Below, one piece after another: positions 1 to 44,874 of a DNA stretch of 51,677 nt (position 1 is the stretch's first letter; each line of letters starts with the position of its first letter). The notes beneath the pieces were generated by a model that saw only the letters and a program-made list of their open reading frames with translations, was not told the DNA's origin and made no database searches. The stretch lies in NCBI GenBank assembly GCA_017306025.1, contig JAFKJJ010000541.1:1-51677 (forward strand). Reading direction: 5' to 3'. This stretch comes from Planctomycetota bacterium (GTDB lineage Bacteria > Planctomycetota > Planctomycetia > Gemmatales > Gemmataceae). A program made the translations under genes and the position numbers.

Positions 1-1173
1 GTCCGCCTGGGCGCGGGCGACCATCGCCTCCGCCTGCATGATCTCGCCGCGCCGAGTGTTGAGGACGGGGATCGGGGTGAAGAGCCACACGCCCATGAAC
101 GAATCCTTCGTCTCGTTCAACTCGAAGGCCGGGCCGATCGACGGGTTGCCGTAGCGGTCGGCGACCTGGAGCCGCAGCCGGGCCTGCGCCTCCGCGACCA
201 TCAGCCTGCGGGACTGGAGGTCGGGCCGCTCTTCCAGCGCGGCCTTTGCGTACGCCTCGAAGTCGGTCGTCGGGACCGGGAGGTCGAGTTCGCCCTTCAC
301 GTCGAACGAGTCGTCGAGCGTGCCGAACTGCCTGCGGAGGTCGGACCGGGCGAACGCGAGGGCGGTCTTCCCCTGGCCCAGCGCGGCGCGGGCCGCGTCG
401 AGTTCGGTGCGGGCGACGATCAGGTCCGCCGACCGCAGCCGGCCGAGATCCGCGAGCTTTTTCACCTGCGCCACCACGTCCTCGTTGAACTTCACCGTGT
501 CCTCCAGCACGTCGAGCTTGCGGCGGCGGTACACGACGGAATTGAACGCGCGGTTGGCGGCGACGGAGACGAGCAACTCTTGGGTGGCGATGTCCCACTC
601 GGTCCGGGTGACCACGGCCTGCGCGGCGGCCCGGCGGTGCTTCCCCTGCCCGCGGATTTCGAGGTCCAGCCGCATCGTCGCTTCGGTGAAGGCGTGGTTG
701 GTGATGCCGGAACTTTGCGGCCCGCTCACGCCCATCTCGAACAACTGGAAGACGGGGTTGAACGGGTATGTGCGGGCGATCACGACCGCGCCGCGGGCGA
801 ACCCGCGCTGCTCGCGGATCGCGGCGAGGCCGGGGTTGTTCTCCAGGGCGAAGCGAACCGCATCCTCGGGGCCGAGGACTGACGGCACGGCCGGGGCGGC
901 CGGCTGGGGGGGCTTCGCGTCCTGGGCCGTCAGCTTCCATGCGCCCGCCGGGATGACGGTACCGGGGCGGGATCGTTCGGCGTCCGGGGCACGCTTCGCG
1001 ACGATCGATGGCGGGGGCGGGAGCGGCCGGCCCCCTCCGTAGGGCTCCGGCACGGAGGCGCAGCCGGCCACCACCCCCGCAAGGGCACCGCCGACGGCGC
1101 GAAGAAGCTGTATGCGATCACCGACGAAGGCCGCAAGTATCTCGACGATCACCGCGAAGCGGCCGACGCCCAT
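1..1173 (-). CDS. TolC/CzcC-type outer-membrane efflux lipoprotein (3' end outside window)
   Basis: Outer-membrane channel of a tripartite efflux pump. The reverse strand is open from the left edge to about 1173. It reads a lipobox-like VVAGC with Cys near 1058, a Pro-rich linker, and then TolC-family helices with the typical ERPDL and PVLNTRRGEI segments. The carboxy end lies outside the window. It lies just downstream of a sensor kinase and response regulator in the same direction, which suggests a metal-efflux operon of the CusRS/CzcRS kind. The start is uncertain. The first in-frame ATG is at 1173, but that leader overlaps a PadR-like fragment on the other strand, so the true start may be closer to the lipobox. 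The family call is firm; the metal substrate is inferred from context only. Confidence 0.8.
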   Translation of the reverse strand, partial: MGVGRFAVIVEILAAFVGDRIQLLRAVGGALAGVVAGCASVPEPYGGGRPLPPPPSIVAKRAPDAERSRPGTVIPAGAWKLTAQDAKPPQPAAPAVPSVLGPEDAVRFALENNPGLAAIREQRGFARGAVVIARTYPFNPVFQLFEMGVSGPQSSGITNHAFTEATMRLDLEIRGQGKHRRAAAQAVVTRTEWDIATQELLVSVAANRAFNSVVYRRRKLDVLEDTVKFNEDVVAQVKKLADLGRLRSADLIVARTELDAARAALGQGKTALAFARSDLRRQFGTLDDSFDVKGELDLPVPTTDFEAYAKAALEERPDLQSRRLMVAEAQARLRLQVADRYGNPSIGPAFELNETKDSFMGVWLFTPIPVLNTRRGEIMQAEAMVARAQAD

Positions 1174-4398: not shown

Positions 4399-5093
4399 TC
4401 AACCGAGGCCGCCGGTCGTGACGACGCGTACGAGTCCGGCGATCACGTCGGCCGGCAGCGGCGCGGCCCGGAGGTCGGCCACCGTGCGCTCCACCTCGCA
4501 GGGGACGCGGCGCAGGACGGCGCGCCCGTCCTCGATCACCGCGTAGCACGCCAGCCCCCCGTGGTCCCGCGCCAGACCGACGCTCCCCGGATTCACGACC
4601 GTCGTCCGCCCGAACGTCCGCACCCCTGGACGTGCGTGTGGCCGAGCAGGACGAAGTCCGCCGCGAGGCCCGCGACGAGATCCTCCCAGGCGTCCGGCGA
4701 GACGTACTCGAACAGCCCGCCGGCGGGCGTGGCGTGACCGACGCGGAAGTGCGCCCCGCACCACTCGAATAGGTCCACCGCGAACAGGTGCCGGAGGTAC
4801 TCGACGTCGTCGGCACCCAAGAGGGTGCGGTGCCACGCGCGGGTCGCCAGCGAGTACGGGCGGTAGGGCCCCATGCAGTGGCAGTCCTGACTGGTCGCCA
4901 GTGCGTTGTCGTGGTTGCCGCGGATCGCGTGGCGCGCGTTTGCCTGGAGCCAGCGGACGCACTCGACGGGGTGGGGGCCGTAGTCCACCGCGTCCCCGCA
5001 GAACGTCAGTTCGTCCCACGACCCCTCGGCGCGGCTCACGGCATCCAGGGCCGGCCAGTTGGCGTGAATGTCGGATAGGACCAGCATCTTCAT
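4399..5093 (-). pseudogene. Metallophosphatase (YfcE/MJ0936-like), frameshifted
   Basis: Calcineurin-like metallophosphoesterase, last gene of the large fluoride operon. The amino part carries MKMLVLSDIHANWPAL, FCGDAVDYGP, RGNHDNA and LLGHTHVQG. The reading frame is then lost near 4628 at a short G run. The other frame continues at once with VRTFGRTTVVNPGSVGLARDH down to a stop at 4399. The intact paralogue at 26888-27595 reads straight through this point, so exactly one base (probably a G) appears to be missing here. The first metal ligands and the last motif are therefore in different frames. This is either a recent pseudogene or a homopolymer sequencing error; otherwise the sequence looks well conserved. 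The start was placed at the Met directly before the first motif, 62 bases after the pyrophosphatase gene. Confidence 0.85.
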
Positions 5094-5155: not shown

Positions 5156-5707
5156 TCAGGGCGATTGTCGCAGTTCCTCCCGGCGGCGCTGGTACAGGTC
5201 CGCAGCCTCGCGGAGGACGGCGAGTGCGGCTTCCCGGCCGTGGGGAGTTTCGACCGTCACCTCTTTCCCCTCCAGCGCCTTGTAGTCCTGGAAGAAGCGG
5301 CGCAACTCCAGCACCTCCGCGACCGACAGGTCGGAGAGGTCGCGCACGCCGGCGAGGAACGGGTCATCGACGTGGACGGCGATCAGCTTGTCGTCCTGCC
5401 CCTTCTCGTCGCGCATGGGCATCACGCCGACCGCCCGCGCCCGCAGCAGCACGCCCGGCACGAGGTCTTCCTTGCAGACCACCAGCACGTCGAGCGGGTC
5501 GCCGTCGGCGCAGTACGTGCGCGGGACGAACCCGTAACTGGCCGGGTAGTACACCGCCCCGTAGAGGATGCGGTCCACCCGCAGAAGACCGGTGGGCTTG
5601 TCCAGTTCGTACTTCACCCGGCAGCCGCGGTTGATCTCCACGAACACCGGGAACCAGTCGGCCAGGTCGTCGCTCAGCGGCACGTCGTGCCACGGGTGCC
5701 CCCGCAT
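5156..5707 (-). CDS. ppa: Family I inorganic pyrophosphatase
   Basis: Hydrolyses pyrophosphate to phosphate in the cytoplasm, pulling polymer synthesis forward. It is 183 residues, normal for bacterial family I. Visible motifs are the active-site VEINRG and VKYELD region, YPASYGFVP and the signature DGDPLDVLV with the metal-binding aspartates. Family I enzymes are classic fluoride targets, because fluoride traps the Mg-bound intermediate, which fits a place in a fluoride-controlled operon. The start codon overlaps the stop of the PAP2 gene (TGATG), so the two are coupled. No odd residues were seen. Confidence 0.95.
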   Translation of the reverse strand: MRGHPWHDVPLSDDLADWFPVFVEINRGCRVKYELDKPTGLLRVDRILYGAVYYPASYGFVPRTYCADGDPLDVLVVCKEDLVPGVLLRARAVGVMPMRDEKGQDDKLIAVHVDDPFLAGVRDLSDLSVAEVLELRRFFQDYKALEGKEVTVETPHGREAALAVLREAADLYQRRREELRQSP

Positions 5708-6492: not shown

Positions 6493-10396
<3,904 letters not shown>

Positions 10397-22513: not shown

Positions 22514-25849
<3,336 letters not shown>

Positions 25850-26643
25850 TCCCCCGACGGGAGGTGCACCGGTACTTGATGAGGAACGCACGTCCCGCCT
25901 GCGGAGTCGGGAGGCGATCCGCCACGCGGCGATGCAGAGGATCACGATCCCGGCCGCGGTCCAAGCGCCCCACCCGAGCCAGCGCCGAAGGGCTTCCCAT
26001 GCGTGCCCGAATGAGTGCCCCAACACCGCCACCGTTGTGACCCAGACGAACGCCCCCGCGGCGTTGGCGGTGACGAACCGCCGCCACGGCATGCCGGCCG
26101 CCCCGGCCGCGGGCCCGGTGACCATGCGCAGGAGGGCGACGAACCGGGCGAAGAAGACCGTGGCGGCCCCGTACCGGGCGAAGTACTCTTCGGCCCGGGC
26201 CATGCGGTCGGGGGTCAGAAGGAGGAACCGGCGCCCGGCCTTCAGACGGGGACGAGCGAACCGGCGACCGAGCCAGTAACCGGCGTTGTCTCCGGTCACG
26301 GCGGCCGCGAATCCGACGCCGATGATGACCCACAGGCGCAATCACCGTCCGCCGTCCGGACTGGACAGGTAGCCGGCGGCGAGCAAGGCGGTCTCACCGG
26401 GGACCGGCACGCCGGCGTTCTCCAGCAGGACGACGAGGCCCAAGGCCCAGTACCCGTGAGTGGCACACAGCGCGAGCAGATCGGACACTCCGCGTCCTCC
26501 GGGCGTGACGACGAGGAATCCCGGTGCAATGGCGGTGCCGCTCGCGACGCGGTGATTCGCGGCCTCGCGGTCGTCGGGCGAGAGAAAATCGGTTCCCGGG
26601 CTTGTCTTTGCGCGCAGGCGCGGGAACAATACGACAATTCGAC

Positions 26644-26728
26644 GGCGATGGAGTTCGCCATAACCGCCCCGGCTAACGCCCTGCCGTGGCTGATGACTCC
26701 TACTTCTGGGGCTCTCCCGGGGTAGGGG
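26644..26728 (+). promoter_or_regulatory. Fluoride riboswitch (crcB motif) upstream of metallophosphatase-dynamin operon
   Basis: GGCGATGGAGTTCGCC at 26644-26659, AACCGCC at 26661-26667, a helix GCCCCGGC/GCCGTGGC with one mismatch, then TGATGACTCCTAC at 26691-26703. CCTAC can pair with GTAGG at 26722-26726 as a competing fold. Freed GGGGT (26725-26729) is complementary to ACCCC (26750-26754) in the terminator, a plausible antiterminator. Confidence 0.94.
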
Positions 26729-26749
26729 TATATTCGAGTCGATCACTCG

Positions 26750-26785
26750 ACCCCACCGGGACGCGATTGTTCCGGTGGGGTTTCT
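26750..26785 (+). terminator. Riboswitch-controlled intrinsic terminator
   Basis: ACCCCACCGGGA (26750-26761) pairs with TTCCGGTGGGGT (26770-26781) and is followed by TTTCTC. It stands between aptamer and coding start. Confidence 0.85.
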
Positions 26786-26887
26786 CATTGCGCCCCCACC
26801 CCGGTGAGCCCCTCGATACCCAGCGATCGGTCCGACCGATCGTCTGATGTTGTTCGAGGCGATTCCCTCCACCGAATCGGTGTGGTC

Positions 26888-27595
26888 ATGAAGCTCCTCA
26901 TCCTGTCCGACGTCCACGCCAACTGGCCGGCTCTGGAGGCGATCCTCGAAGCCGAAGCTGACTGCGACAACGTCGTCTTCTGCGGTGACGCGGTGACCTA
27001 CGGGCCGAATCCGGTCGAGTGCGTGCGGTGGCTGGCCGGGCACGCCCGCCACGCCGTCCGCGGCAACCACGACAACGCCATTATTCATGGCCTGGACTGT
27101 CGCTGTCTGGAGTCGAGCCGCCGGTACGCGCTCGCCACCCTCGACTGGCACTGCGAACTCCTCTCCGACTCCGACCGGGCCTCTCTTCGCAACCGGCTGG
27201 CGCTCGATTTTTTCGAGTGGAACGGGATGCACTTCCGCGTGGCCCACGCGACCCCGCACGGGGACCTGTATGAGTACCTGCCCGCGGCGCTGTGGGGGCA
27301 ACGCGTCCGGGGGCTGGACGCCGATTTCGTGCTCCTCGGCCACACGCACGTTCAGGGAATGCGGACGTTCGGAAAAATCACGGTGGTGAACCCCGGCAGC
27401 GTCGGATTCGCTCGCGACCACTGCGGTGCGGCCTGCTACGCGACCCACGAGCGGGGCCGGATTCAACTGAAGCAGGTTCCCTACGACGTCAGCCGCACGC
27501 TGGCCGCGCTACACCGCGCGCCGCTGCCCGATCCGATCATCCAGGGCCTCGCCCGAATGCTGACGAATTCGACGCTCGTGCACGGGCTGCGCTGA
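26888..27595 (+). CDS. Metallophosphatase (YfcE/MJ0936-like), intact paralogue
   Basis: 235 residues, calcineurin-like phosphoesterase. All metal motifs are in one frame: LILSDVHANW, VVFCGDAVTYGP, VRGNHDNA, HATPHG, LLGHTHVQGM and VNPGSVG. It is a close paralogue of the frameshifted gene at 4399-5093; both belong to fluoride-controlled operons, on opposite strands. Natural substrates of this family include phosphodiesters and other phosphate esters and cannot be fixed here. The gene overlaps no other and ends 53 bases before the GTPase start. Confidence 0.92.
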   Translation: MKLLILSDVHANWPALEAILEAEADCDNVVFCGDAVTYGPNPVECVRWLAGHARHAVRGNHDNAIIHGLDCRCLESSRRYALATLDWHCELLSDSDRASLRNRLALDFFEWNGMHFRVAHATPHGDLYEYLPAALWGQRVRGLDADFVLLGHTHVQGMRTFGKITVVNPGSVGFARDHCGAACYATHERGRIQLKQVPYDVSRTLAALHRAPLPDPIIQGLARMLTNSTLVHGLR

Positions 27596-27648
27596 CGGAG
27601 TTCGCCGTCGCACACAGCGTCTTGGCGCAACTGGTCCGGGGGCCAACT

Positions 27649-29682
27649 GTGAATCCGTTCAACCCGTCACAGAGCCGCAGCATCGCCATCAGCTTCCAGT
27701 GCATCCACGGCCGGCTAGCCGACATTGAGGCGATGCTCGCACGGTCGGAAGTCGCGTCCCAGTTCTCCGAATACACCCCGGACCTGTCGCCCACGGAGCA
27801 GCGGATCCTGCGGGACTATTTCGGCCAGGTTCGGGCGGCCATGCTCGCGCTGCTCCAGGACTGTGGCATTCCGCTCGGGGTCCAGCGGAGGAGCCTCCGG
27901 TGGGGGGTGCAGGTCCACCTCGGGATGATCGGGGTCGCCCTCGCCGACCTGGGGCCGCGCAGCCTGGAAGGGTACGGGGCGCTGGGCGAGTCCGCGTGGG
28001 ATCGGGCCGTCCGGATCCGCCAGGAACTCGACCGCCTGGTCGATCGCGTGTACACGTTCCTCGCCCGGCACCGGGGGCCGGAACTGGCGGCCCGGCTGGT
28101 CCGCCTCGGCGCGGCCGCGGGAGCGGACGAACTCCGGTTGATCGACCGAGTGGTCACCCGCTGGGGCCTCGTCGCGTTCCACCCCCAGGTCGCCACCCTG
28201 GCGCGCCGGCTGGAGGCCCCGGAGTTCGAGGTCGCGGTGTTCGGCCGGGTCAGCTCGGGTAAGTCGTCGCTGCTCAACCACCTCGCCTGCTCGGACGTGT
28301 TGCCCGTTGGGGTCACGCCCGTGACCGCGGTCCCGACCCGCCTGACCCGCGGTGCCGCGGCGGAATGCGTGATCACGACGGCCGAATCCGGTCCCCGCGC
28401 TGTCCCGGTCGTGGAGCTGAAGGAGTACGCATCGGAGTATGGGAACGCCGGGAACCACAAGCACGTCACCGACATCCTGGTCCGGGTGCCGTCCCCCCGC
28501 CTGTCCGACGGGATCGTGCTGGTGGACACACCGGGCGTCGGTTCCCTCGCCCAGGCCGGGGCCGCGGAGGCGATGGCGTACCTGCCGCGGTGCGACCTCG
28601 GCGTGGTGCTCGTGGACGCGGCCTCGACCCTGAACGCCGACGACCTCGGGCTGGTCCAGCAATTGACCGACGCGGGCACCCCCGTTCAGGTTCTCGTGAG
28701 CAAGGCGGACCTGCTCTCGCCGGCCGACCAGATGCGCTCACTCGCCTACGTCCGGAACCAACTCCATCGGGAAACCGGGACCGACGTCCCGGTCCACGCG
28801 GTGAGCACGGTCGGGGCCGGCGAGGAACTCTTGAGCCGGTGGTTCGCGGAGGAGATCGAGCCCCTGTTCCGGCGGCACCGGGAGTTGGTCGGGGAATCGA
28901 TCCGGCGGAAGATCACGGGCCTTCGCGCGGCGGTAGCCGTCGTATTGCAGACGATGGCCGACCGGGGGTCAGCAGTAGCCGGTCGCGGGGGTCCGAAGAC
29001 CGTGGGGGACGCCCGGACCCTTCTGGAGGCCGCCGACCGCGCGGTGCAAGCGGCGCGGGACCGTGAGCGGAGCGGGTACGGGGCCGCCGACCTCCTGACC
29101 GAGCAGGTGCTGGAGGAAGCCCGATGGGGCAGCGGCACGGGCGCGGTGGCGCAGGCGGCCGCAAAGGTGCTGTCCCGGAGGGGTCAGGAGGCGGTGTCCC
29201 TGGCCCGCGATCTCCAGACGACTCTCACCCGCGCGCTGGAGGAGTTGGCCGCGACGGGGTTTGTTGCCGGGGTCGATCCTTCCGCGGTCGTGCGCGTCCC
29301 GCTGCGCGGTTTGCCCGACGCCGACTTGAAGACCTTGGCGGACGACCGGAACGGCCGACTGTCGTGGTGGGGGGTGATCCCGGGCCTGAAGCCTCGGGCG
29401 TTGCGGAGTCGGTTCGGTGCACCGCTCCGGGGGTTGATCGACGGGTACGACAGTGCCCTCCGGCTCTGGCTCCGGGCGGCACAGGATCAACTCGTCGAGG
29501 CGTTCGAGTCGCAGGCCGAGGTCGCGCGGGAGCAAGCGCGGCGGCTCGCCGCCGCGCCGGAAAGCGGTACTCGCGACGATCAGGCCGACCTCGCCGCTGA
29601 CATCGGGGAACTGCTCGGCAATGGACTCGCACCGCGTGTCGGTCCAGAAAGCGCCGAGCCGGTCGCCGCGCGGGTGGAGTGA
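27649..29682 (+). CDS. Dynamin-like GTPase
   Basis: 677 residues from a GTG start; the frame is open further upstream into the phosphatase gene, so the start is a judgement. GTPase motifs: G1 FGRVSSGKSSLLN at about residue 197, G2 region TPVTAVPTRL with Thr, G3 DTPGVGSLA, G4 SKADLL. Long helical regions flank the G domain on both sides, as in bacterial dynamin-like proteins that remodel or protect membranes. It is second in the operon behind the third plus-strand regulatory element and so is probably induced by fluoride. Membrane repair during stress is a reasonable idea but not shown. Confidence 0.82.
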   Translation: MNPFNPSQSRSIAISFQCIHGRLADIEAMLARSEVASQFSEYTPDLSPTEQRILRDYFGQVRAAMLALLQDCGIPLGVQRRSLRWGVQVHLGMIGVALADLGPRSLEGYGALGESAWDRAVRIRQELDRLVDRVYTFLARHRGPELAARLVRLGAAAGADELRLIDRVVTRWGLVAFHPQVATLARRLEAPEFEVAVFGRVSSGKSSLLNHLACSDVLPVGVTPVTAVPTRLTRGAAAECVITTAESGPRAVPVVELKEYASEYGNAGNHKHVTDILVRVPSPRLSDGIVLVDTPGVGSLAQAGAAEAMAYLPRCDLGVVLVDAASTLNADDLGLVQQLTDAGTPVQVLVSKADLLSPADQMRSLAYVRNQLHRETGTDVPVHAVSTVGAGEELLSRWFAEEIEPLFRRHRELVGESIRRKITGLRAAVAVVLQTMADRGSAVAGRGGPKTVGDARTLLEAADRAVQAARDRERSGYGAADLLTEQVLEEARWGSGTGAVAQAAAKVLSRRGQEAVSLARDLQTTLTRALEELAATGFVAGVDPSAVVRVPLRGLPDADLKTLADDRNGRLSWWGVIPGLKPRALRSRFGAPLRGLIDGYDSALRLWLRAAQDQLVEAFESQAEVAREQARRLAAAPESGTRDDQADLAADIGELLGNGLAPRVGPESAEPVAARVE

Positions 29683-29794
29683 AAGTCACGGGGCACCGAT
29701 CAAGGCGAGCCATCCCGGCCGAGGGTTCGCGGCCATCGCCCGCGGGCGTCCCTATGGGTAGACGCTGTCCGCCGCGGAGGTAGTCTCCCGTCGC

Positions 29795-30496
29795 TTGCCC
29801 GGCATTGAACTCCCCGTCGTCGGCCCTCCCGTCCCCGAAATCCCGCGATACACGGGGGACATCGACAGGGACGCGTGGGGGCTCATGCGCGGCGGGTTGG
29901 CGGAAGAGATTACCGGTGGCCTCGCCTACCCGAGCAAGATGGACTGCCCGGCGTGGGGCATCTCCGCCACACGTTGCCGCATCGGAGCCGCTCTCGCGAA
30001 GCAGCCGGGAACCGTGTGCGCCGCGTGCTACGCGATGAAGGGCACGTTCCGGGCGAAGGCGGTGGCGGACAAGCTAGAGCGGGCGTACCGGGGGCTCTTC
30101 GATCCGCGATGGACGCCGGCCCTGTACGCCCTCATCCGGTGGCACGCGACGGACCGCTTCCGATTCTTCCACTCGGGCGACTTCCAGGGCGAGAACCACT
30201 TCCTGAACATCATGCGGATCTGCGCCGCCACCCGGGACGTCCTCTTCTGGATCCCGACGCGCGAGGTCGCGCTCGTCCGCGAACACGCCGACGCGATCCC
30301 GGAGAACGCCGTCGTGCGGATCTCGGGCAACGTCATCGACGGGCCGGCCCCGACGTGGTGGCCGACGACCAGCACGGTGGCCACCGACCCGCGGCGGGCC
30401 ACCTGTCCCAGCTCGAAGAAGGGCGGGAACTGCGGAACGCATCACTGTACGGCGTGCTGGTCGCCACAGGGAAACGTTGCCTACCTGCGGCACTGA
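29795..30496 (+). CDS. GP88-like protein (phage gene product 88 family)
   Basis: 233 residues from a TTG start preceded by GGAGG. It resembles the GP88 family found in many phages: cysteine-bearing KMDCPAWGISATRCRIG, CAACYAMKGTF, then RFFHSGDFQGENHFLNI and a Cys-rich end (CPSSKKGGNCGTHHCTACW). The cysteine spacing suggests a metal or Fe-S site, and the fold is often compared to radical-SAM-like barrels, but no function is established. It marks the switch from the fluoride island to accessory genes. Confidence 0.75.
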   Translation: MPGIELPVVGPPVPEIPRYTGDIDRDAWGLMRGGLAEEITGGLAYPSKMDCPAWGISATRCRIGAALAKQPGTVCAACYAMKGTFRAKAVADKLERAYRGLFDPRWTPALYALIRWHATDRFRFFHSGDFQGENHFLNIMRICAATRDVLFWIPTREVALVREHADAIPENAVVRISGNVIDGPAPTWWPTTSTVATDPRRATCPSSKKGGNCGTHHCTACWSPQGNVAYLRH

Positions 30497-42848: not shown

Positions 42849-43403
42849 CGCGGTTATTCCTCCACGCGGTCGTGCGGGTGATCTTCTCCAGTTTGTGGAC
42901 AGTTCCGCGCGTCCGCGGGTTCGATCGGCACTTCCGCAACATCGGTCATTCGGCACTCGCGGGCGTGCAGCGCCGGGACTTCCTCATTTTACCTGATGCG
43001 GCACGGCGTTTCGGGCGGGCGTTCACCGTCCGTGGGGAGAAGCGGATAGCTTCACGATGGGCGGGAGAAGATCATGAATTGCGGCTGCTGACCCGCGTAC
43101 GTCGCCCGCGGCCGAAGGGCGGTGATCATTGCAACACACGAGTTGTCGATCAGGTTACAGATCCGTGTCGCACGCTCCGCCATCGACCCACAAAGCAATC
43201 GCCCGTTGTCAGTCGACACCGCGCTGGAGGGAGACGCGAGAAGGTGTCCGCGATGGCTCTGTCCGAGAATGTCCGAGAATGGCATGGAAACGGTCGTAAA
43301 ACGCGCTACACTGTGTAATGTCGGGAAGCCCGGAGGCGGGCGGACGAAAGCCAAAAGTCACTGGAAAACAAGGCGTTTTCGCTGCGAAGGGCGTGATCCA
43401 CGT
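42849..43403. other. Intergenic, no gene recognised
   Basis: About 555 bases upstream of the CHAT gene and before the tRNA fragment. Open frames exist on both strands but have no family support. One minus-strand frame contains the string DSNPQPPDRQSG, a well-known spurious translation across tRNA genes. The left attachment junction of the element may lie at its right end. Confidence 0.5.
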
Positions 43404-43451
<48 letters not shown>

Positions 43452-43629
43452 CTCATATTCTGTAAGCACTTGCGGCGGGTCTTGACCGCCGGGCACCGGC
43501 GATAATAGGTCGCCGGTGCCTCATAAGTGCCTCCTGTGTCAATCGTGTCGCACCGTGTGGCAAACCGGGGTCGGACGACCCGCCCCGGTCTCACCCACCA
43601 CGTGTCCCGTCAAGGGGAGCGACACCTAC

Positions 43630-44874
43630 ATGGCCAACCTGGGGAAAAAAGGCGACGTCTTCTGCGTCCGGTTCCGGCTCCGCGGCAAGGAGTACAAGAA
43701 GTCCCTGAAAACGAGGGACGAGTCCGCCGCCCGCGCCGCCCTGCACCTGATCGAACTCACCCTCCACCGCCTGCACACCGGCCAGCTCCACGTCCCGGAT
43801 CGGGTCGATCCCGGCGACTTCGTCGTCAGCGGCGGCACCATGACCGAGCCCGCCGAGCCGAACCCGCCGGTGGAGCCCGCGCCGCTACCTTCGACGCGCG
43901 AGCTGGTCGACCTCTACACCGCCGCGATCAAAACCCTGGTCGCCCCGTCGTACCACGCCAGTCAGGCGATGCACCTGAGGCACCTGCTGAGGCACCTCGG
44001 CGGCCGCGCCGACCGCCCGTGCGACGCGGTCACCGTCCGCGACCTCGACGGGTTCGTCCAGGCGCGGCTGGCGGCGCGGCACCCGAACACCGCCGAGCGA
44101 GAGCGGATCACCCTGCTCCAGTTCTACAAGTGGGTCGTCCGCCAACAGTACCTGCCCGCTTCGCCCGCCACCGGGCTGTCCCCGATCAAGGGGGGCGAGG
44201 ACCGGCCACCGTTCCGCACGGCCACCGAGATCGAGCGGATCATCGCCCGGGGCGGGCTGAACGACGAAGAGCGGCTCGACCTGTGGGACACCCTCTACCT
44301 GAGTCCGCCTGAGATCGCTGGACTACTAGCGACGGTTCGGGCGAACATCGCCCTCGACTACGGCTTTCTGCTGCACGCCATCCCGGCCTACACCGGGATG
44401 CGACGGGGCGAGGTGCTCCGGCTGCGGTGGATCGACGTTGACCTGGACGAAGGGTTCGTGTCGGCCCGCAGCCGCAAGCAGTCTCGGCGGAAGCGGGAGA
44501 CGGTGCGGCGGATCCCCCTTCACCCCGAATTGAAGGCCGAACTCGTCGCCTGGCGGGAGATGCGGGTCCGGGGCCAGCACGTCATCTGCGAGCCGGACGG
44601 GGCCGGACCGATCAACAACGACCGGGCGAACCGGGTCTTCTGGCAGCCGATGCGCGGCACGACTTGGTGCCTGGACAACGGCCGGGATCTGTTCAAGGTC
44701 GGGTTCCACACCTACCGGCACTCGTTCGCCTCGAACCTGGCGGCGGCCGCGGTCGACCAGCGGGTGATCGACGAGATGATGGGGCACACCACCGAGGCGA
44801 TGCGGAAGCGGTACCGGCACCTCTTTCCCGCGGCGAAGACGTCCGCGATCGAAAGTTTCTCACTGGTCAAGTAA
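43630..44874 (+). CDS. Tyrosine recombinase (integrase)
   Basis: 414 residues from an ATG preceded by AGGGGAG; the frame is open further upstream but crosses the spacer. An amino core-binding domain carries the YHASQAMHLRHLLRHLGG region. The catalytic domain has Arg in YTGMRRGEVLRLRWID, then FHTYRHSFASNLAA with the HxxR, MGHTTEAM with the second His, and the Tyr nucleophile in KRYRHLF. All active-site residues are present. It should recombine the tRNA-Asp half site next to it. Confidence 0.93.
   Translation: MANLGKKGDVFCVRFRLRGKEYKKSLKTRDESAARAALHLIELTLHRLHTGQLHVPDRVDPGDFVVSGGTMTEPAEPNPPVEPAPLPSTRELVDLYTAAIKTLVAPSYHASQAMHLRHLLRHLGGRADRPCDAVTVRDLDGFVQARLAARHPNTAERERITLLQFYKWVVRQQYLPASPATGLSPIKGGEDRPPFRTATEIERIIARGGLNDEERLDLWDTLYLSPPEIAGLLATVRANIALDYGFLLHAIPAYTGMRRGEVLRLRWIDVDLDEGFVSARSRKQSRRKRETVRRIPLHPELKAELVAWREMRVRGQHVICEPDGAGPINNDRANRVFWQPMRGTTWCLDNGRDLFKVGFHTYRHSFASNLAAAAVDQRVIDEMMGHTTEAMRKRYRHLFPAAKTSAIESFSLVK

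Follow-up and report, generated by a model that had tools for sequence, protein, structure and literature searches.

Here, we show by comparative sequence analysis that a family of predicted dynamin-like GTPases, about 680-700 amino acids long and with an N-terminal helical domain of their own, lies behind fluoride riboswitches in Planctomycetota, Verrucomicrobiota and Acidobacteriota. The window that we analysed, a stretch of 51,677 nucleotides, is a single contig from a MAG of planctomycete type, 82% complete, and carries one member of this family behind a riboswitch and a phosphoesterase gene (Table 1). Predicted fluoride control of the GTPase is strongly supported, because the riboswitch linkage recurs among its relatives, the switch is coupled directly to the dynamin gene in 21 Acidobacteriota, an Opitutia contig repeats the order of the window, the neighbours are fluoride genes and background dynamins of the order are mostly unlinked. 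The established defences against fluoride are export, pH homeostasis and the replacement of inhibited enzymes, and a review names neither a dynamin nor a GTPase among the members of riboswitch regulons (PMC11139923). The sequence-only reading had called a membrane-remodelling GTPase in a fluoride regulon new. Indeed, a search that covered little of the subscription literature returned no relevant paper joining the fluoride riboswitch or crcB with a dynamin, although the supplement of Baker et al. 2012 could still mention one.

Table 1. Features of the window, numbered from its first nucleotide; protein domains are given in residues.
Feature	Position	Strand	Detail
Fluoride riboswitch aptamer, RF01734	26635-26709	+	cmscan 52.8 bits, E 7e-12; canonical long-range A-U
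Aptamer 3' strand ACUCCUAC	26696-26703	+	partner of GUAGGGGU
Expression platform	26722-26754	+	constrained folding of growing transcripts
Anti-aptamer strand GUAGGGGU	26722-26729	+	alternative partners: aptamer strand or terminator side
Antiterminator, GGGG + UCGAGU with ACUCGA-CCCC	26745-26754 (ACUCGA-CCCC)	+	constrained folding
Terminator-like hairpin	26749-26782	+	14 pairs, weak U tract UUUCUCAUU; folding
Perfect palindrome CGATCGGTCCGACCGATCG	26824-26842		between terminator and phosphatase start; one copy in window
Calcineurin-like metallophosphoesterase, 235 aa	26888-27595	+	ATG start, intact; PF12850 1.4e-22
Dynamin-like GTPase, 677 aa	27649-29682	+	GTG start; PF00350 1.8e-21
GTPase domains	N-terminal helical ~1-152, neck, G domain ~190-400, helical trunk, tip ~536-580		AlphaFold
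N-terminal helical domain, residues 1-154	27649-28110		confident model, pLDDT 90.6
DedA/VTT membrane protein gene	25805-26509	-	divergent from riboswitch operon; in-frame TGA 26342-26344
Dense fluoride island	4399-29682		four riboswitches
Second phosphoesterase copy	4399-5093		60% identical; adjoins pyrophosphatase gene; frameshift near 3' end splits ORF
Pyrophosphatase-like gene	5156-5707		in fluoride island
Enolase-like gene	6493-7779		in fluoride island
CrcB-like gene	8157-8573		in fluoride island
tRNA-like match	43387-43451
ORF resembling tyrosine integrase	43516-44874		by eye

The two genes of the predicted operon are intact, and its elements stand in the order that had been read from the sequence, i.e. 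aptamer, terminator, metallophosphatase and 677-residue GTPase; the U tract of the terminator-like hairpin is weak. The aptamer scores well above the gathering cut-off of 34 bits of the RF01734 covariance model. The catalytic motifs of the phosphoesterase (DxH, GD, GNHD, H, GHTH) are complete and, together with its Metallophos_2 domain and a score of 58.2 bits against TIGR00040 (cut-off 56.25), place it in the YfcE-type family; homologues at other fluoride loci are 33-39% identical. After a gap of 53 nt follows the GTPase gene, whose GTG start is backed by the alignment of orthologues. The GTPase reaches 77 bits against PF00350 (cut-off 27) and retains the motifs G1-G4 (GRVSSGKSS, T226, DTPG, SKAD), the residues of which are invariant in 46 sequences.

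The predicted folds of the leader exclude each other, as expected of an ON switch. Without fluoride, ACUCCUAC is predicted to pair with GUAGGGGU and to leave the terminator free to form, and this is the fold obtained for the apo leader. Transcripts of 122-140 nt folded instead into the antiterminator, which takes up the 5' arm of the terminator, when the aptamer strand was made unavailable, as it would be in the fluoride-bound pseudoknot. Mg-fluoride would lock the aptamer strand into the pseudoknot and release GGGG/UCGAGU, which would capture this arm and permit the predicted readthrough into phosphoesterase and GTPase. The full-length leader returned the terminator every time; thus, the switch would have to act kinetically. 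A strict terminator scan did not list the hairpin because of its weak U tract. In the aptamer itself, the canonical A and U of the long-range pair and the conserved pseudoknot strand are present. Among 81 related riboswitches, 58% show an anti-aptamer pairing of at least 7 nt within 60 nt downstream, and the longest pairing averages 6.0 versus 3.4 in shuffled sequence. The palindrome downstream, for which 0.03 copies would be expected in the window with up to 2 mismatches, is possibly an operator.

Is the combination of fluoride riboswitch and dynamin a recurrent arrangement? A search by protein through 102 genomes of the order yielded four full-length members of the family (the window, G037, G072 and G093; 47-48% identity), all of them behind a fluoride riboswitch; in the three other genomes the dynamin gene comes first after the switch, at a distance of about 100-120 nt. 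Fluoride riboswitches of any kind occur in 21 of the 102 genomes, and the full-length dynamin is present in 4 of these 21 versus 0 of the 81 without (hypergeometric p about 0.0014, calculated by hand). That dynamins in general are tied to fluoride was ruled out, since only 6 of 25 PF00350 matches in the order are riboswitch-linked and nearly all others have no riboswitch nearby; one dynamin (G072:C338), with a riboswitch several kb upstream, is a doubtful case. Distant short dynamins of the wider phylum have a riboswitch upstream in 18 of 21 cases.

Orthologues were sought by protein alone, with a profile scan of the contigs of the named genomes. A scan of genome contigs with the single protein returned no orthologue, while the alignment-based scan found 80 (31-48% identity), mostly in Acidobacteriota, but also in Verrucomicrobiota, Planctomycetota and a few other groups. 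Riboswitches were detected with a covariance model, R1, built from 24 local aptamers; a regex had missed known riboswitches. The Rfam model confirmed many of the R1 aptamers at gathering score, and several Acidobacteriaceae leaders fell below it. In 71 of the 80 loci a riboswitch lies upstream on the same strand, 53 times within 300 nt and 18 more times at 0.3-3.5 kb. Several of the nine orthologues without a match sit at contig ends; by eye, one of the nine has an aptamer-like leader (L190) and one a decayed leader (L179), and decayed or absent leaders in the family are those of L181 and L179. Recurrence in dozens of other genomes rules out a chance co-location of riboswitch and GTPase. A tree of G domains unites the long family in one well-supported group (100/100) and shows fluoride linkage in several groups of short dynamins also. 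The proposal that a GTPase of membrane-remodelling type belongs to a fluoride regulon has thereby gained strong comparative support. Since its relatives are nearly always found behind a fluoride switch of their own, such a protein appears to be a regular and overlooked part of fluoride defence.

A direct coupling occurs in 21 Acidobacteriota leaders (...GATGACTCCT...GGAGGAGTCATG...), where the 3' strand of the aptamer is complementary to the Shine-Dalgarno sequence and AUG of the dynamin, and this AUG is in frame in 21 of 21. In these leaders the switch therefore seems to act on translation, with the dynamin gene as its target. Over 150 aptamers, the long-range pair, which we take to be A6-U38 in T. 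petrophila numbering, is A-U in 88, U-A in 49 and G-C in 8. It corresponds to the reverse Watson-Crick pair A5-U35 of the B. cereus aptamer (PMC8004769). In loci outside Planctomycetota, 41 of 45 dynamin leaders carry this pair as U-A instead, and other aptamers of the same loci have A-U in 68 of 86. This A-U/U-A covariation speaks for a genuine tertiary pair. The U-A variant is strongly concentrated in the Acidobacteriota dynamin leaders (L125-L200) and could represent a tuned or re-targeted fluoride aptamer.

The AlphaFold model of the GTPase (mean pLDDT 83.9) was placed by Foldseek and VIA-align with IniA, BDLP, Cj-DLP1/2 and mitofusin/Fzo1, in agreement with the profile search. Alignments to IniA, BDLP and mitofusin span residues 152-661, i.e. 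a helical neck and trunk packed on the GTPase domain. The best Foldseek matches are mycobacterial IniA structures (6j72, 6j73; E 4e-14, ~16% identity), whose alignment leaves out the N-terminal helical domain; IniA is a stress-inducible bacterial dynamin as well, but it responds to isoniazid and not through a fluoride riboswitch. Campylobacter Cj-DLP1/Cj-DLP2 (5owv, 5oxf) are the best sequence-profile matches (E 4e-25). In most cases, bacterial dynamins act as pairs (PMC6104087), although no strong second dynamin was found in the 82% complete MAG of the window. The Cj-DLP genes form such a pair side by side, as do dynamins in 42 of the 80 fluoride loci, often a long one with a shorter one; the Campylobacter pair has no known link to fluoride, however, and the window has its long dynamin alone nearby. 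BDLP of Nostoc and mitofusin/Fzo1 share the neck-trunk architecture (Z 17.7 to 25) at 15-17% identity, whereas the window GTPase has no clear transmembrane paddle by hydropathy. The N-terminal domain of ~150 residues had no match in the PDB at E <= 0.001, which does not by itself prove a new fold. Hydropathy revealed no clear transmembrane segment in proteins of the long family; membrane binding would therefore be peripheral or by the tip, which is aromatic/hydrophobic in Planctomycetota.

Within 5 kb of the dynamin gene, counted over the window and the 80 orthologous loci, enolase occurs in 38 loci, and UspA or DUF190 genes occur in about 41, followed by CPA2 antiporters (14), MFS transporters (12), CrcB (10) and metallophosphoesterases (8), with pyrophosphatase and MutS also among the neighbours. 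CPA2 antiporter, CrcB, enolase, pyrophosphatase and phosphatases are thus common to these loci and the reviewed fluoride riboswitch regulons of the crcB motif (PMC11139923), which differ in that the present loci hold a dynamin-like GTPase and, in Acidobacteriota, leaders with a U-A pair and, in 21 of them, start-codon occlusion. The order riboswitch-phosphoesterase-dynamin of the window recurs on the Opitutia contig (L188), and two Verrucomicrobia loci (L129, L130) read dynamin-riboswitch-phosphoesterase-short dynamin.

We consider it probable that the locus is a fluoride-inducible operon in which the GTPase keeps intact or remodels a stressed membrane, while the phosphoesterase backs phosphoryl transfer inhibited by fluoride. 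Like IniA, DynA, BDLP and Cj-DLP1/2, the GTPase would bind the cytoplasmic membrane, and GTP-driven oligomerisation or tethering would maintain or remodel it under HF influx, acidification and loss of proton-motive force. The phosphoesterase would replace or boost a metal-dependent activity that fluoride inhibits, as would the pyrophosphatase and enolase of the same island. From the likeness to characterised dynamins we infer that the GTPase protects or repairs the membrane; membrane damage or the need to seal HF leakage, as suggested by the sequence-only reading, may lie behind this. A dynamin that is conserved and driven by a riboswitch would point to membranes as a further target of fluoride, would provide a defined chemical inducer for bacterial dynamins, so far rare, and would offer a testable system in cultured Acidobacteriota.

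The main rival reading is that fluoride poisons the GTPase and that the cell makes more copies of a protein with a housekeeping job. GDP-AlFx traps dynamin-type GTPases, aluminium or beryllium fluoride with GDP would be the poison, and the neighbouring enolase and pyrophosphatase, both known fluoride targets, offer a precedent for over-production. However, most related genomes lack such a dynamin (any match in 9 of 102, full-length in 4 of 102), so that it is not housekeeping, and the one strong dynamin of the MAG is the induced one. We thus regard over-production of a poisoned GTPase as unlikely. Much less credence still goes to the idea that only the phosphatase is fluoride-regulated and that the GTPase has its own promoter. 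The phosphoesterase gene does stand between riboswitch and GTPase, and the palindrome could mark another control site, yet between the two genes, which are 53 nt apart, neither a promoter-like site nor a terminator was seen on the + strand. The sequence-only reading had named a constitutive promoter of the GTPase within the phosphatase gene as what would overturn its proposal; a consensus scan of the + strand from 26300 to 29800, a weak test, found no sigma-70-like site. Moreover, the 53 orthologues with a riboswitch within 300 nt of the dynamin start and the 21 with the start codon inside the switch argue against this reading.

Could the dynamin be a passenger, carried along in a fluoride-resistance island but playing no part under fluoride stress? 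The density of fluoride genes in such islands and a patchy distribution, with no family member found in genomes of the same genus, would fit. A mere passenger is very improbable, however: most of the dynamin genes are not part of a shared operon but have a riboswitch of their own, several phyla and more than one dynamin subfamily show the association, and there is covariation at the long-range aptamer pair. An anti-phage dynamin of LeoA/LeoBC or DynA type under stress control is suggested by a PADLOC match to LeoA, and DynA of B. subtilis affects phage spread (PMC8844932). This identity was ruled out as weak: the LeoA match is partial (36 bits, residues 287-532) and falls short of a strong full-length one, and the partners are fluoride genes, with no defence partners seen. 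We attach almost no probability to it.

Beyond the single operon, we tentatively speculate, with somewhat less than even confidence, that the response to fluoride stress includes a membrane arm which has gone unrecognised: a dynamin family dedicated to it, in many cases as a heterotypic long/short pair, would be fluoride-induced in several bacterial phyla and would physically maintain or repair the membrane, the Acidobacteriota version being run by a U-A aptamer subclass with a possibly different threshold or ligand.

All four fluoride riboswitches of the 6.6 Mb MAG lie inside the window. By resemblance, further genes of its fluoride island encode a CPA2 antiporter, MgtC, a SulP transporter, phosphofructokinase, DUF190/DUF211 proteins and trehalose synthase/maltokinase. 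The frameshift in the second phosphoesterase copy is either an error or decay. Elsewhere, in loci of Acidobacteriota and Gammaproteobacteria (L131, L164, L182, L190, L199), genes that by eye resemble those of NuoH/NuoM complex subunits lie next to fluoride riboswitches or run divergently, and two fluoride loci with dynamins (L158, L193) are on contigs binned as methanogens (Methanoregula, Methanofollis), possibly by error. In the window, the tRNA-like match and the integrase-like ORF that follows it form a possible mobile-element boundary.
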